Positions 1,793-59,835 of a stretch of DNA of 59,835 bases are shown in pieces. A model generated the notes under the pieces. It made no database searches and had not been told where the DNA came from. It worked only from the letters and a program-made list of their open reading frames with translations. Position 1 is the stretch's first letter; every line of letters begins with the position of its first letter. The DNA comes from an uncultured Pseudomonadota bacterium (GTDB lineage: Bacteria > Pseudomonadota > Gammaproteobacteria > Burkholderiales > Rhodocyclaceae): the NCBI GenBank assembly GCA_903951825.1, contig CAJBDJ010000017.1, forward strand, positions 1-59,835, read 5' to 3'. Both the position numbers and the translations under genes were made by a program.

Positions 1793-2317
1793 TCAATTTG
1801 GAGAACGCGCTTGCAACCTTAACGTTTCTAAAGACTCAGCTTGCCAGTCTCCCTGAAGCCGCCATTTTCCTGAAGGATCCTCAAGTGATACGATCCATCT
1901 TCCATGCAACTCACCAACCGTTTTTCCTCCGTACAACCCCTGACCTTCGGCAACAATTTTTATCAATTGATCTTGTCCCGACTGAGTTGGATGAGAAAAC
2001 TTAAGCAGAAGTTCACTGGGGAGCAGGGTTTGACTATTAGTGTTGATCAACAAACGAATGCTAGAGCCTGAATGCATCAGATCAGCTCGCAAACCCATGC
2101 TCTTGGCCTCATGATCGCGCTGGAGACGTTGATTAACTGTCATGCCCTGCTTGTAATAATCGTCATTGACTAGCCCGTCATTGCTGACAACAGCAAGCCA
2201 AGCAGTGACAAATCCGGCAACTATAACAAGTGCAGGTCCCAGCATTAATATCCATGGCCAAGGCTCTTTATGCCATGCCTGTCTATTAATATTTTCAAGC
2301 AGCCCGCTGTTATTCAT
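1793..2317 (-). CDS. fixH: FixH family cbb3 oxidase assembly protein
   Basis: A 174-residue FixH-like protein from the ATG at 2317; longer in-frame starts upstream lack a good ribosome site. After a short cytoplasmic stretch containing WHKEPWPW there is one transmembrane helix (about residues 20-42). Next comes the family-typical NDDYYKQG motif, then a beta-rich periplasmic domain ending in a WRLQGDW segment. FixH works with FixG, FixI and FixS in copper delivery and maturation of the cbb3 oxidase. Here it follows ccoP but is separated from it by a terminator, so it probably has its own promoter in 2318-2467. The partners fixG, fixI and fixS are not in this window. Confidence 0.88.
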   Translation of the reverse strand: MNNSGLLENINRQAWHKEPWPWILMLGPALVIVAGFVTAWLAVVSNDGLVNDDYYKQGMTVNQRLQRDHEAKSMGLRADLMHSGSSIRLLINTNSQTLLPSELLLKFSHPTQSGQDQLIKIVAEGQGLYGGKTVGELHGRWIVSLEDPSGKWRLQGDWQAESLETLRLQARSPN

Positions 2318-2467
2318 ACTCAACCTTTTGGAAATTTTTAGTCTTGTATGAGCATCCGCTCGCAACTAAAAAAGGCACCATGTAAGACTAATTTTTTCGA
2401 CGAATTACACTATAAAAATGCAACTGGGAAAAGATTTAAGGGGCCAAATCAGAGGCTGACAGCTTAT

Positions 2468-2494
2468 AAAAAAACGGGGCAGATATCCGCCCCG
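2468..2494 (-). terminator. Terminator after ccoP
   Basis: Read leftward, CGGGGC and GCCCCG form a stem around GGATATCT, followed by seven T. It begins 11 bp beyond the ccoP stop and separates ccoNOQP from fixH. Confidence 0.88.
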
Positions 2495-2505
2495 CTAAAC
2501 TGAAA

Positions 2506-3402
2506 TTACTTGCCCTGACTCAAGCCATAAACATATGCAGTTAAAACATGAATTTTTCCTTCACCCAGAAACTCCTTCCAGGCAGGCATTTTGTTTTGAC
2601 GACCACCGTTGATTGTTTCTGTGATAACTGCTTCAGACGAGCCATACAACCACACTTTGTCAGTGAGATTCGGTGAGCCAATCGCTTGCATCCCTTTTGC
2701 ATCTAGGCCATGACACCCTGAACAACCGACAGCTGCGAAAGCTTCTTTACCTTTTGCTGCACGAACAGAGTCACTCGGAAGCCCAGACAAAGAGCGAACG
2801 TAATTCGCAAGATCTTTGACGGTATCGGCACCAAGTTGTGCATGAGGAGGCATGACACCCATCCGGCCTTCATTGAGTGTTAACTTAATCTGCTCAGGCT
2901 CGCCACCATACAACCAGTCGCTATCGGTAAGATTTGGGAACCCCTTAGCTCCGCGGGCATCGGCGCCGTGACATTGCATACAATAAGTCAGGTACAAGTT
3001 CTTGCCCATTTCCATAGCCTGCTTGTCACTTGCGACGGCTTTCACATCCATTGCTAAATACTTGTTGAACAGTGGTTTGACGGTAGCATCAACCTTTTCA
3101 ACTTCATCCTTGTGCTGCCCAACAGATGTCCAACCAAGTACACCCTTGAAATTACCCAAACCCGGATAAAGAGCCAGATAAACAAATGCAAAAACCACAG
3201 TAATCACAAATAACCATGACCACCATTGAGGCATCGGGTTGTTGTATTCCTCGAGAGTTTCATCCCAGACGTGACCCATGGTCTTGCCTGGAGTGAAAGT
3301 CGCTTTGCTCTGAATGATTAATAACGCAACACAGGCAAGGATACTGCCGGCGACGATAACAATTACATACAGGTTCCAAAAATCACTAATGAAATCGCTC
3401 AT
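2506..3402 (-). CDS. ccoP: Cytochrome c oxidase cbb3-type, subunit III (CcoP)
   Basis: The di-heme c subunit of the high-affinity cbb3 oxidase, 298 residues. It has two N-terminal membrane helices (about 10-30 and 60-80, the second after the NPMPQWWSW motif typical of CcoP). Two cytochrome c domains follow, with heme sites YCMQCHGAD (about 140) and GCSGCHGLD (about 227) and axial-ligand Met loops (GVMPPH, NKMPAW). It takes electrons from the bc1 complex or soluble cytochromes and passes them to CcoO and CcoN. It is the last gene of ccoNOQP, with AAAGGA before its ATG, and lies 15 bp after ccoQ. Confidence 0.97.
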   Translation of the reverse strand: MSDFISDFWNLYVIVIVAGSILACVALLIIQSKATFTPGKTMGHVWDETLEEYNNPMPQWWSWLFVITVVFAFVYLALYPGLGNFKGVLGWTSVGQHKDEVEKVDATVKPLFNKYLAMDVKAVASDKQAMEMGKNLYLTYCMQCHGADARGAKGFPNLTDSDWLYGGEPEQIKLTLNEGRMGVMPPHAQLGADTVKDLANYVRSLSGLPSDSVRAAKGKEAFAAVGCSGCHGLDAKGMQAIGSPNLTDKVWLYGSSEAVITETINGGRQNKMPAWKEFLGEGKIHVLTAYVYGLSQGK

Positions 3403-3417
3403 TTGCTTTCCTTTATC

Positions 3418-3594
3418 TCAGCGAGGATGCGCCGCTGGAGGCGGCACACTCTGATCATCGTTGTCCGCAAACGGCAGATTTGCAGCTTCCTCAAACCCTT
3501 TTTTGCTACTTTTGCCGTAAGCCCACACGACGATACCTAGAAAACAAATCAGTCCAAGTACCGTTGTGATGGAACGTAGATCGTTGATATCCAT
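3418..3594 (-). CDS. ccoQ: Cbb3-type oxidase subunit IV (CcoQ/FixQ)
   Basis: A 58-residue single-pass protein from the ATG at 3594. It begins MDINDLRSITTVLGLICFLG and continues with a transmembrane helix and the VWAYGKSSKKGFEEAANLPF pattern characteristic of CcoQ. CcoQ stabilises the association of CcoP with the CcoNO core. It sits 3 bp after the ccoO stop and 15 bp before ccoP, in the standard NOQP order. The ribosome site is weak and overlaps the end of ccoO, suggesting translational coupling. Confidence 0.93.
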   Translation of the reverse strand: MDINDLRSITTVLGLICFLGIVVWAYGKSSKKGFEEAANLPFADNDDQSVPPPAAHPR

Positions 3595-3597
3595 GAC

Positions 3598-4236
3598 TTA
3601 TTGCTTCATGGTGCTCAGAGCCGTACCCATACCTTGCAGGTAAGCAATGAGAACATCCATTTCGGTCATATCCCCGATGGCAGCCTTGGCACCCTTGATG
3701 TCTGCATCAGTGTATGTAGGCAGTCCACGAGCATTTGCGTAACTGCGCATAACCTCCATCTTAGATTCGACATCGGCACCGACAGAGTCCTTGGCTTTGG
3801 TATTTGCCAAAAAAGCAAACGCCGGCATATTGGATTCAGGAACCACGTCGCGCGGATTCATCAGATGCGCGCGCTGCCATTCATTTGAATAACGACCACC
3901 AACGCGGTGAAGATCTGGACCTGTACGCTTTGATCCCCACTGAAAGGGATGGTCGTAAACAAACTCACCCGCAACGGAGTAGTGACCATAACGCTCGGTT
4001 TCTGCGCGGAATGGACGAATCATCTGTGAGTGGCAAAGAAAACAGCCCTCACGAATATAAACGTCGCGCCCAACCAAGCGAACCGCATCGTAAGGCTTAA
4101 CACCCTCCACTGGCGTGGTGGTCGATTTTTGGAAGAACAACGGTACGATTTCCAGCAGGCCACCCCAAAGAACAACAAGTAGCGTCAGTACGATGAGCAG
4201 ACCAACGTTTTTTTCAATTTGCTCGTGCTTGATCAT
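3598..4236 (-). CDS. ccoO: Cytochrome c oxidase cbb3-type, subunit II (CcoO)
   Basis: The mono-heme c subunit. I choose the second ATG ([10 protein letters not shown]) because GGGGG then lies 8 bp upstream; the first ATG would be only 2 bp from it. The protein has 212 residues, with one N-terminal membrane anchor (about 12-34), the heme site GCFLCHSQ (about 64) and the conserved segments [20 protein letters not shown] and [14 protein letters not shown]-terminal domain with [14 protein letters not shown] follows. It accepts electrons from CcoP and passes them to CcoN. It lies between ccoN (16 bp away) and ccoQ. Confidence 0.97.
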
Positions 4237-4252
4237 TATCATTTCCCCCTAA

Positions 4253-5677
4253 TCAGGCGTGATGAGCGACAGGAATATTTACTGGCGTGTCCTGAGTATT
4301 GCCGCCAGCCATTGTCTTGAACATGTTATATGCCATCAACAACATGCCTGACAGGAAGAGAACACCACCTAACCAGCGAATTGCCCAGAACGGATAAGAC
4401 CCCTTGACGGACTCGACAAAGCTGTATGCCAGCGTGCCATCCATGTTGCCTGCACGCCACATCAAACCTTGCATGACGCCGGCAATCCACATGGAGGCAA
4501 TGTAAAGCACTGTGCCAATCGTTGCGATCCAGAAGTGCGTCGTGACCAGCTTGGTGCTATACATTTCGCTTTTGCCAAATAAGCGGGGAATCAAGTAGTA
4601 CATCGCCCCAATGGACACCATGGCAACCCAACCCAAAGCACCTGAGTGAACGTGACCTACAGTCCAGTCCGTGTAGTGCGACAGGGCATTCACCGTCTTG
4701 ATTGACATCATCGGACCTTCGAAAGTAGACATTCCATAGAAGGAGAGTGAAGTAATCAGGAATTTGAGGATCGGATCATCGCGCAAACGATGCCAAGCTC
4801 CAGACAAGGTCATGATTCCGTTGATCATGCCACCCCACGACGGGGCCAGCAAAATCAGGGAGAAAACCATGCCAACAGATTGAGTCCAGTCAGGAAGTGC
4901 CGTGTAGTGCAGGTGGTGAGGACCCGCCCACATATAAGTAAAAATTAGCGCCCAAAAGTGAACCACTGAAAGCCGGTAGGAATACACCGGACGACCAGCT
5001 TGCTTTGGGACGAAGTAATACATGATGCCAAGAAAGCCGGCAGTCAAAAAGAAACCCACTGCATTGTGCCCATACCACCACTGAATCATGGCATCTTGTA
5101 CGCCAGAATAAGCCGAGTAGGATTTTGTGAGCGTAATTGGCAAAGCAGCACTATTTACCAGATGCAGCAAAGCAACTGTGATAATCATGGCGCCAAAAAA
5201 CCAGTTTGCTACGTATATGTGGGATACGGTGCGCTTGGCGATGGTTCCAAAAAAAACCAAAGCGTAGGAAACCCAGACCAAGGTAATCAAAATATCTATC
5301 GGCCACTCAAGTTCGGCATACTCTTTTCCAGAAGTGATTCCCAGAGGTAGGGTTATGGCTGCCAACAAAATTACGACCTGCCAACCCCAAAAGGTGAAGG
5401 GAACCAAGGGGCCACCCCAAAGACGGGTGTGACAAGTGCGTTGAACGCACCAGTAGGAGCTTGCAAACAGCGCGCAGCCACCAAAAGCGAAAATTACTGC
5501 ATTGGTATGCAATGGACGTAAGCGACCAAAGTGCAAAAAGCCGATATTTAGTTCCGGCCACACCAGCTGAGCAGCAATGATGACACCTACCAGCATGCCA
5601 ACAATGCCCCAGATAACGGTCATGACGGTAAATTGCCGTACGACCTTGTCGTTATATGTGGTTTTCGTCACAGACAT
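4253..5677 (-). CDS. ccoN: Cytochrome c oxidase cbb3-type, subunit I (CcoN)
   Basis: The catalytic heme-copper subunit, 474 residues and about 12 membrane helices. It carries the low-spin heme and binuclear-centre histidine signatures, including [20 protein letters not shown] near the N terminus, [28 protein letters not shown] and [17 protein letters not shown]. It reduces oxygen to water with high affinity while pumping protons. GAGGTG lies at good spacing before the ATG. It is the first gene of ccoNOQP, and the Fnr/Anr box about 95 bp upstream indicates induction at low oxygen. Confidence 0.98.
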
Positions 5678-57671: not shown

Positions 57672-58235
57672 GATCTAACCCCGGAAACGATATTCAAAGA
57701 AACTGAATTTTAAGGCAATTCGACCTGCCGTAGGGCGAGCGAGCGCCACGCCCGACAAATTTTCGGTGGCCGGCAGGGACGAGCATTCGCAGCCCGGCGT
57801 TGAGCTCCCATCGCAACGTAGGTAAGGGGCGCTGCGCGACGCTTTCCGGCGCGCGCGCAATGACGGTTTCCTGCACCCCAACCGAAAAAGCCTGATTGCC
57901 TTGCTGCACCTCGTTCTCAGGATCGCGCCGCGTCCGCCGCTGCCGGATAAACCCCGGCCGGTGTTTCTCTGCCCATGTTGCGGCACGCCGATGCAGGTCA
58001 TCCGGCGGCGAATTCCAGCCCGTGCGGTCAGGCGACGAAGTTCGCCATGGATGACGGAGACGGCCGTGTAAGCCACGGCCACGGGAAAGACGGAGCGCCG
58101 ATGCCGGCACCGCCCGATCAGCGAATCGGGCACCCCGCCCACCTTCGGGCAGGGTTTCAAAAAGCTATTTGCAGGGAACCCCAAACCAGGCTTGTTCAAC
58201 AACCGGTTCAGATCGTGGCTACGCACGATCTAACC
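57672..58235. repeat. Degenerate non-coding block bounded by a 9-bp direct repeat
   Basis: About 560 bp with long but unconvincing open frames on both strands (arginine-rich, no ribosome sites). The 9-mer GATCTAACC occurs at both ends (57672-57680 and 58227-58235). The right copy is one arm of a hairpin at 58205-58235: GGTTCAGATCGTG, loop GCTACG, CACGATCTAACC, with a single bulged C. No terminal inverted repeats or transposase seen. It may be a decayed insertion or a family of intergenic repeats. Confidence 0.5.
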
Positions 58236-58248
58236 TTAATCGTTGGGC
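58228..58248 (-). other. Truncated attC-like site
   Basis: Read leftward after the lipoprotein cassette gene: GCCCAAC (an R-double-prime-type RYYYAAC box, 58242-58248), then 7 bp, then GTTAGAT (a GTTRRRY-type core, 58228-58234). A complete attC needs some 50 or more bases between these boxes, so this looks like a deleted or disrupted site at the edge of the cassette array. Confidence 0.45.
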
Positions 58249-58267
58249 ATTGACCTCTGCACGATTT

Positions 58268-58570
58268 TCACTTTTTGAAACGCCCCTTTTCGCACCAGTG
58301 GCGCATCTTTATATTGGCGCTCCAGCCATTTTCTCTTTTGCTTTTCTCAAAGTCTGCTTGATAAAGATCGGCAGCCTCTTGGCAAATCTGTCCATTCAAT
58401 TCTGGAATATTGGCCAGATCGAATGTCGCCACCCCACTTCGCCCAACGTCGGTTGGATAATTTGAAGAATAAAGCGTGTAAACCTCAGATTCAGGAAAGC
58501 CTTTCTCGGAACATGCAGCTAGGCCTAACGCGACTGTAACCACGACTAGCGATGTGCTGATACGGATCAT
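58268..58570 (-). CDS. Integron gene-cassette lipoprotein, unknown function
   Basis: 100 residues from the ATG at 58570, which lies only 6 bp from the attC core GTTGGGC, the tight spacing typical of cassette genes. The leader MIRISTSLVVVTVALGLAAC has a lipobox (L-A-A-C, Cys20), so it is a predicted lipoprotein. The mature part has SEVYTLYSSNYPTDVGRSGV, ATFD, paired Cys residues (QICQEAADLYQ and HWCEKGRFKK). The VYTLY...VATFD...CEKGRFKK pattern recurs, as I remember it, in many cassette-encoded proteins with no known function. G+C is lower than in the core genes. Confidence 0.82.
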   Translation of the reverse strand: MIRISTSLVVVTVALGLAACSEKGFPESEVYTLYSSNYPTDVGRSGVATFDLANIPELNGQICQEAADLYQADFEKSKRENGWSANIKMRHWCEKGRFKK

Positions 58571-58576
58571 TTCGAT

Positions 58577-58691
58577 GCCCAACGCCCAAGGTAAGCGGAG
58601 CCGGAGCCGAAGGCGGAGGGCACCAGCACTGGCCATGAAAATGGCGAAGCCATGGCCAGTGTTGGCGTCCGTTTGACCGCCCAGTTAGGCC
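58577..58691 (-). other. attC recombination site (59-base element), complete
   Basis: 115 nt read leftward. R-double-prime box GCCTAAC (58685-58691) is followed by TGGGCGGTCAAACGGACG. A long central hairpin has arms CACTGGCCATG (58651-58661) and CATGGCCAGTG (58627-58637). The site ends with CTTACCTTGGGC and core site GTTGGGC (58577-58583), where cassette exchange occurs. It lies directly after the 237-residue cassette gene and directly before the lipoprotein gene, as expected for a cassette junction. Confidence 0.9.
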
Positions 58692-58718
58692 ACGATGCCA
58701 GATGTGCGGTTGTGTGCA

Positions 58719-59432
58719 TCATGAACTCAACTGAGGTTTTGTTGAGCCAACCCCAAGAAGGCCTCGAAATTCGGTCTCGAGCGCCTCCAAGAGCTTAGGC
58801 GCTTGCTCGCCTGTTCTCTCCCAGGTCTTAAGAACGATTGGGTTGACGTATGGTTGATTTTCATCGTCGCGAATAGCAACGTTCTGGTACATGACGCCCA
58901 AATAGCCTGCTGCAGTTGCAAAGGATTCGATGAGTTGGCAGACATCTGCAGAGAAGTAGATTTTTCTTTCTCGGTAGAAGTTCATGAAAGCCCTGTAGTC
59001 TTCATGCAAGGCTTTTGCCTTTGCTTCTTCCTCAGGCGATAGCGTATGGATACCTTCTTTTAACTCCCAAGGTTCAGCCTCGTGTGCCTCGTGTTTGGCG
59101 TAGTGCTCTGCTCGGACTTCCCGTGCTCCAAGTTCGCGACTCAAGCCGATGATTTGCGTATACAGACTCACGCAGCGTGCGTACAACTCTGAGATTAGCT
59201 CTGCTCGTTTGGCATGCAGGGCTGTGTACTCGACGGCGTTACGGTGAGCTTCGATCTGCAAGCTCGCCTTGAATGACTCAATGCTTCGCTGGCTGGATGC
59301 CTGTAGTTCCGACTTGAATTGCTCTACATTTTTTGACAAAAAATTTGTTAGCAGGGATTTGGAGAGCCAGGCAAGCGCGGCGACAAGTATCGCCGTACCA
59401 CCTAGAGTTTTAATGACTTCTTCCCAAAGCAT
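58719..59432 (-). CDS. Integron gene-cassette membrane/coiled-coil protein
   Basis: 237 residues. An N-terminal membrane anchor (LGGTAILVAALAWLSKSLLT, about 10-29) is followed by a long helical, coiled-coil-prone region (about 33-115: SKNVEQFKSELQASSQRSIE, LHAKRAELISELYARCVSLY). A charged middle and a C-terminal helical part (NFYRERKIYFSADVCQLIES) follow. I do not recognise a named family. The architecture (one helix, then cytoplasmic coiled coil) is common among cassette proteins of unknown role. An attC-like core GTTAGTC lies 15 bp upstream of its ATG and a full attC lies 27 bp downstream, so it is one complete cassette. Confidence 0.85.
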   Translation of the reverse strand: MLWEEVIKTLGGTAILVAALAWLSKSLLTNFLSKNVEQFKSELQASSQRSIESFKASLQIEAHRNAVEYTALHAKRAELISELYARCVSLYTQIIGLSRELGAREVRAEHYAKHEAHEAEPWELKEGIHTLSPEEEAKAKALHEDYRAFMNFYRERKIYFSADVCQLIESFATAAGYLGVMYQNVAIRDDENQPYVNPIVLKTWERTGEQAPKLLEALETEFRGLLGVGSTKPQLSS

Positions 59433-59447
59433 GCTGGTTCCAAAAGG

Positions 59448-59454
59448 GACTAAC
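59448..59454 (-). other. attC core remnant interrupted by an insertion sequence
   Basis: Read leftward, CATTCGTTAGTCCC precedes the 237-residue cassette gene. GTTAGTC matches the GTTRRRY core at six of seven positions. The rest of this attC is not found on its far side, where IS110/IS1111-type sequence begins, so the element appears to sit inside the attC of the preceding cassette. Confidence 0.6.
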
Positions 59455-59455
59455 G

Positions 59456-59835
59456 AATGAAAGGGACTTCCCCGTCCCGAATTAACGGTGGAAGCCGCCG
59501 GCAGCGGTTGCTGGCATGATTGATTTTCCAGACCAAATCATTCGTTCGACAGGGGAAGTCCATGAATATTGTCACCGTTGGCATTGATCTCGCCAAGAAT
59601 GTATTCGCTTTACATGGCGTTGACCAGAGTGGCAAGGCGGTTTTTATCAAGCCCAAGGTGGCTCGTGGCCAATTACTTGAGATGGTCGCCCACTACTGGG
59701 CGAGAGAATTCAGTCGCTTCGGTCACACCGTCAAACTGATGGCCCCCAAGTTCGTGGCGCCCTACCGGATGAGCGGCAAGCGCGGCAAGAACGATGCCGC
59801 CGATGCTGCCGCCCTCTGTGAAGCTGTCACCCGGC
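59456..59835 (+). mobile_element. IS110/IS1111-family insertion sequence, left end (runs off window)
   Basis: The left end lies close to 59455-59463. It carries GGGACTTCCCC (59463-59473), whose complement GGGGAAGTCC recurs just before the transposase ATG (59552-59561), giving an inverted repeat around a short (about 80 bp) leader. Position within an attC core suggests the IS1111-attC group, which targets integron attC sites (established knowledge of that group). The exact boundary and the right end are outside what can be seen. In IS1111-type elements the long non-coding region that encodes the guide RNA lies downstream of the transposase. Confidence 0.75.
59562..59835 (+). pseudogene. IS110-family (DEDD) transposase, 5' part, with in-frame internal deletion
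   Basis: 91 residues to the window edge, frame open. It begins MNIVTVGIDLAKNVFALHGV, with the first catalytic Asp in GIDLAK. KPKVARGQLLEMVAHYWARE follows, then GHTVKLMAPKFVAPYRMSGK and KRGKNDAADAAALCEAVTR, holding the last two Asp of the DEDD set. Family members that I remember have about 15 extra residues between MVA and HYWARE, including the GMEACSG segment that supplies the catalytic Glu. Here that segment is absent without a frame shift, so the enzyme is probably inactive. Called a pseudogene on that basis; the rest of the gene is not in view. Confidence 0.7.

Follow-up and report, generated by a model that had tools for sequence, protein, structure and literature searches.

A probable remnant of a chromosomal integron cassette array bracketed by fossils of two attC-seeking elements at opposite attC ends

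The mobility of integron gene cassettes is determined by their attC sites. Tetu and Holmes in 2008 are said to have described footprints in Pseudomonas arrays that are similar to those presented here. In IS91 itself, the ori end abuts GTTC or CTTG, a rule that perhaps does not extend to every member of its family. ISShvi3 and other elements with an extra tyrosine recombinase are taken here to form a subgroup of the IS91 family. In the available part of the paper on ISShvi3-type elements, the authors state that they saw no insertion sequence (IS) interrupting an attC. Elements of the IS1111 pattern are described, in the portion of the source available, as having subterminal inverted repeats and a long non-coding region 3′ of the transposase gene (PMC11187229). 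The IS1111-attC kind of element is already known, and in the available parts of the literature the seeking of attC R'' cores by IS91-type elements has so far been mentioned only in passing, with one single case of such targeting in open-licence publications (PMC9229058).

The window, that is, the whole 59,835-nt stretch of DNA that was analysed, is an entire contig (C17) from a draft genome of 2.6 Mb whose genus was taken as Dechloromonas. It stops at position 59835 within an IS1111-type IS, so that the right end of this IS lies outside the sequence. Read leftward from 59454, the array consists of the core GTTAGTC, 15 nt, cassette 1, an attC, the core GTTGGGC, 6 nt, cassette 2 and the core GCCCAAC. 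The genes of cassettes 1 and 2 (58719..59432 and 58268..58570, both on the minus strand) encode 237 and 100 aa; the first starts 15 nt from GTTAGTC and the second 6 nt from GTTGGGC, just as the preliminary description had placed two leftward cassette genes 6-15 bp from their cores. The 237-aa protein matched no Pfam or NCBIfam family above cut-off, nor was any Pfam or NCBIfam family found for the 100-aa protein, the start of which looks lipoprotein-like by eye. Between these genes of one orientation lies an attC with R''/R' cores and paired arms, and the stretch is a cassette array, as had been proposed. The cassettes, the attC and the IS110-type IS of that earlier picture all stand, but it overlooked a second array boundary, at left (58241/58242), and both array edges in the window are mobile-element ends.

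The locus is read here, with a probability of roughly 85%, as a remnant chromosomal array bracketed by the fossils of two attC-seeking elements that entered at opposite attC ends. This reading draws on the anatomy of the locus, on the observed insertion points and on their recurrence in relatives. Briefly, a chromosomal array would have been reduced to two cassettes and one complete attC on a contig without integrase. On the right, the IS1111-type IS would have entered beside the R' core (CTAAC|G) under the guidance of an RNA, while on the left an IS91-type element would have entered between the attC body and R'', against the direction of the cassettes. Insertion of this kind would part cassettes from half of their attC, and normal excision should then be blocked. 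Later decay may have left the short one-sided footprints that now mark the edges of the array.

The attC separating cassettes 1 and 2 (58577..58690, minus strand) was recognised by means of a covariance model, its structure and its fold. The cores of this site, R'' = GCCTAAC and R' = GTTGGGC, pair over their whole length of 7 positions, with one G-T. The covariance model (R1), for which 19 attCs were taken from seven loci of relatives and none from this genome, gave the site 30.4 bits and an E of 3e-5, with the whole window as the search space. The region for which such a check had been suggested (58577-58691) is thus indeed scored as an attC, at a length of 114 nt instead of the 115 nt first given. 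The sole other match of the model in the window, up to E = 10, covers 28 nt (14.5 bits, E = 0.26). Standard pairs occupy 85.4% of the cells of the model structure versus 20-46% when the structure is slid, and 9 pairs display changes on both sides; further pair types, one of five measures, were not above shuffles (230/500). As single-stranded DNA, the window site folds better than shuffled sequences on both strands, with z of about -2.5. Candidates for the model had been selected by eye, the only use that was made of early attC finders based on free energy and simple arm alignment; these finders proved unselective (214 hits versus 215 in shuffled sequence) and were rejected.

In a genome-wide run of the attC model, scores were obtained for only 150 of 2938 candidates and the window site was overlooked, so the resulting attC count is incomplete, and a direct search of 10 sources with the model returned 10 sites at E 0.001 or better (three on C44, four on C3, two on C26 and one in the window). 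On C26, two attCs are present by the contig start (825-1160), and the IS1111 left end was not found on that contig. Rfam gave two hits, both under gathering scores, and a scan for promoters and terminators stayed at chance level.

At the right edge, the R' core GTTAGTC (59448..59454, minus strand), assigned from sequence and relatives, is whole and the IS adjoins it at 59455; the suggestion that the left end of the IS cuts this core did not hold. The part of the IS contained in the window (59455..59835, plus strand) comprises the left end, which reads GAATGAAAGGGACTTCCCC, a 107-nt leader and an incomplete IS110-family transposase gene (59562..59834, plus strand) that is open at the contig end and, compared with full-length copies, lacks 45 nt at about 59691. 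The encoded fragment matches PF01548 with an E of 1.2e-4 and 22.3 bits, under the cut-off of 29, and the transposase of the one full-length relative scanned matches NF033542 of the IS110 family with 366.4 bits. In full-length copies, which end in GGGGAAGCCCTTGTA, the transposase has about 341 aa, and a closely similar transposase (96%) occurs in Dechloromonas sp. SSB2. The subterminal inverted repeats (left GGGACTTCCCC, right GGGGAAGCCC) are imperfect, with a one-base indel, and the extensions outside them read as 6 and 3 nt. In full-length relatives, about 340 nt of non-coding sequence, which would lie outside the window, extend from the transposase stop to the right end. As judged from sequence, the element thus has the traits of the IS1111 family, namely a DEDD transposase related to IS110/IS1111, subterminal repeats and a long 3′ non-coding region.

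The copy in the window is a defective one. The 45 nt gone from its transposase gene (15 residues) cover LPPCLIGMEACSGAH, a stretch that by analogy would hold the catalytic E, and matches that end at 243-244 with the window IS as query are partly an effect of this gap. An intact IS1111-type transposase was not seen in the stretches of the source genome that were read. The 141 nt at the end of the window recur as the start of contig C12, although the join of the two contigs is unproven; on C12, a partial attC, recognised by eye, begins where the transposase stops.

The IS1111-type left end was detected in 17 of 76 same-genus genomes including the source genome, which contains it at 7 further places, one of them a 42-nt fragment. 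After exclusion of short fragments and duplicate loci, 28 complete left ends were counted, 24 of which lie beside GTTR. An ORF of at least 57 aa starts within 60 nt of 23 of these 28 versus 48% in a random control, which makes this ORF criterion for cassettes a weak one. Among the 13 two-ended copies from same-genus genomes, nine are located in an attC: R' stands to their left and what remains of the site, judged by eye, to their right. These copies are preceded by CTAAC or a variant and followed by G plus the remaining attC; in seven of them, all but L059 and L067, the right flank is a hit of the attC model as well. The other four (L060-L063), all from genome G037, are situated outside attC at sites that mimic only its R'-L' part. 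The attC half predicted to lie beyond the IS is therefore found, in relatives only, and the proposed membership in the IS1111-attC group is supported: the window IS would be a further member of this known kind. In genome G004, an array that adjoins an integron integrase gene carries two copies a short distance apart. The 14 other loci listed, from Beta- and Gammaproteobacteria, have left ends that resemble this one, and an attC was called at E 0.05 or better in 10 of 40 such loci, which indicates that the group is wide. The 3′ non-coding region of intact copies holds GGCTAACGAATGA and GGTTGTAG, words identical to the element's two junctions. This fits the known RNA-guided choice of targets by a seekRNA and points to a putative seekRNA in the IS1111-type element.

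At the left edge, positions 57826-58241 are the right end of an IS91-type element, intact relatives of which carry an IntI-like tyrosine recombinase. This end adjoins GCCCAAC (58242..58248, minus strand), the R'' core of the attC that belongs to cassette 2, and replaces the remaining attC; on the minus strand, the cassette 2 gene ends 26 nt from the junction, as expected if R'' is the target. The C-terminal fragment of an IS91-type (HUH) transposase, a remnant of 81 codons (57826..58071, plus strand), was recognised from its translation and from DNA matches to contig C20 of genome G003 and to C44, where PF04986 is called in the matching stretch. The terminal part of the element (58194..58241, plus strand) abuts GTT as in relatives and, together with this GTT, folds into an attC-like hairpin in which a single base bulges out. 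The left end is missing, the window copy being truncated. An entire element is found on C20 of G003 (L187, 4699-7075), with the left end GTTGAACGAAGCCGCTACGCGGAG, a tyrosine recombinase gene with its frame broken at 227 codons, an IS91 transposase gene and the right end CTAACCTTAATC. The recombinase of an intact element has integron integrase as its best NCBIfam match (84.7 bits, under the cut-off of 265). An IS91-family HUH (Y2) transposase with a zinc-binding domain is predicted for an intact relative, with PF04986, PF14319 and NF033538 (353.2 bits) all over cut-off.

All 40 distinct intact right ends of this element abut GTT. This is followed by A or G (GTT[AG]) in 38 of them and GTTC stands at only two, hence the label IS91-type, which classes the element by its transposase. 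In the genus set, GTT[AG] adjoins each of the 16 intact right ends. This count leaves aside L178, L181, L182 and L183, in which the match stops short of the end or lies elsewhere, as well as L171, a degenerate end that continues with GTCA and not GTT. For the wider family, the four of 31 rows that fall short of the end were omitted; GTT adjoins all 27 others, as GTT[AG] in 25, and three loci common to both sets give the total of 40. Of 395 genomes, 59 contain the right end and 46 the left end; the right end is present in 29 of 68 genera. Thirty left ends were obtained from 30 fetched loci among 67 places listed (none from L260, two from L274). In 21 of the 30, the left end lies within 2 nt of the R'' of a model-called attC and the element's heptamer stands in for R'', while nine, that on contig C24 among them, are not called as attC by the model. 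These positions show recurrent insertion of the IS91-type element at the R'' of predicted attCs in many genera.

Ends of both elements are also encountered together in the source genome. Contig C24 starts in the IS1111 3′ region and, within positions 1-204, carries the IS1111 right end, about 54 nt that resemble an attC body by eye and the IS91-type left end, in this order; judged by eye, it apparently represents a single attC invaded from both sides. C3 has a 151-nt, internally deleted IS91-type copy within an attC. On C44 (1639-4021), an IS91-type fragment, a cassette-like gene and an attC lie between an IS1111 left end and a right-end region.

The best plasmid relative of the IS91-type element (L298, positions 2003-4338 of the IncC plasmid RCS41_p of E. 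coli) carries a tyrosine recombinase and an IS91 transposase, the latter 42% identical, and lies in a class 1 integron, flanked by aadA1 and qacEdelta1. An attC body precedes its left end GTTGAACGAAGCCGCT; beyond its right end come GTTAGAC and then the end of aadA1. The attC that holds the element is presumably that of aadA1, and the gene is separated by the insertion from its attC body, so that the effect would reach beyond environmental bacteria. In full, this element was seen in the RCS41_p record only and was absent from the E. coli genome collection in a near search. The other plasmid relatives (L299-L301) have similar ends, with no recognisable attC flank.

The contig with the array contains no integrase, in line with what the preliminary description had said of the window, and an integron integrase (TIGR02249, 490.9 bits) is encoded on a separate contig, C60. 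There (1-1218) the integrase gene is accompanied by a short cassette-like frame, seen by eye only, that leads away from it and runs off the contig start; attI was likewise placed by eye only, and this contig possibly holds the parent integron. In genome G027, the attC model places 14 sites of E 0.01 or better on a single strand of a long attC cluster (L072, 10954-18922), and a match to integron integrase was absent from the 19 kb fetched.

How the left-hand element moves can be explained in several ways. One suggestion, made tentatively and at less than even odds, is that an IS91-type lineage with its IntI-like recombinase has become a self-moving mimic of integron cassettes, the ends of which would join as an attC-like hairpin and enter in reverse via R''. 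Alternatively, the element might itself be a gene cassette, inserted by IntI via the wrong (top) strand. Its joined ends would then form an attC with R'' = GTTCAAC and R' = GTTGAAC, and IntI or its own recombinase would exchange strands at G|TT in R''. Such an origin would account for the finding that the first heptamer and one about 48-56 nt before the right end are perfect R''/R' partners in all 10 family elements having both, a count that omits the one-ended loci L288, L290-L295 and L297, as well as L022, in which the right heptamer is deleted, and L296, for which there is no row. Two versions of the pair occur (GTTGAAC/GTTCAAC in four, GTTGGAC/GTCCAAC in six), a compensated stem change is present in L283 and L284 of the same genome, the fold is attC-like with one bulged base, and the recombinase is closest to integron integrases. 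However, the two versions may represent one ancestral change, shared ancestry could explain the pairing, and the pairing fails in two of the four plasmid relatives (L300, L301). Model R1, moreover, does not call the window's IS91-type right end as an attC. Normal IntI activity would give R' in the direction of the cassettes, whereas these elements, attC-like as their ends are, are inserted at R'' and reversed, which makes a true cassette doubtful.

An ordinary HUH element that needs only GTT, with the finds in attC reflecting the tolerance of arrays for insertions, would agree with intact right ends that abut GTT whether the flank is recognised as attC or not, and with some flanks that appear unrelated to attC (L299, L301). 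It is nevertheless unlikely, as free choice of GTT would hardly be expected to bring 21 of 30 fetched left ends to a model-called R''. For the right-hand element, it was considered whether the IS1111-type left end is an attI- or attC-like attachment site that receives cassettes and not an IS in attC, since a leftward ORF starts 7-30 nt from all seven complete left ends in the source genome, with a different gene each time. This idea was dropped as highly improbable, because nine of the 13 two-ended relatives have the other attC half past their right end.

If, as the preferred reading of a doubly bracketed array implies, two unrelated element types have converged on opposite attC ends, cassettes could be frozen, arrays could be cut from their integrase and orphan clusters could result. 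The short conserved ends of both elements make such footprints simple to survey. Should the IS91-type lineage prove to mimic cassettes, it would add a further, independent class to the parasites of attC; its members would part a cassette from its attC and could supply new genes with attC sites.

Compared with known systems, the right-hand element resembles the IS1111-attC group (ISPst6, ISKpn4, ISPa21), in so far as the available parts of the sources describe it, in its IS110-family transposase, subterminal repeats, long 3′ non-coding region and position at one attC end (PMC11187229, PMC11616780), a match to ISPst6 and ISKpn4 that is one of descriptions and not of compared sequences. It differs in its host genus and in the 15 residues that the window copy lacks. 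The left-hand element shares with ISShvi3 and other members of the IS91 family with an extra tyrosine recombinase, again compared by description, a recombinase gene that precedes the HUH transposase gene, and is distinguished by its recurrent, position-exact insertion at attC R'' in many genera. Group IIC-attC introns, according to the portions of the reports available, also lie in attC opposite to the cassettes, and one of them splits a gene from its attC (PMC7923331, PMC8876359); these are retroelements with a ribozyme, in contrast to the DNA transposase and recombinase found here. Finally, like a CALIN (an attC cluster without integrase), the array has attC cassettes and no integrase on the contig end that was read, but here the cluster is bordered on either side by the end of a mobile element, and an integrase is encoded elsewhere in the genome.
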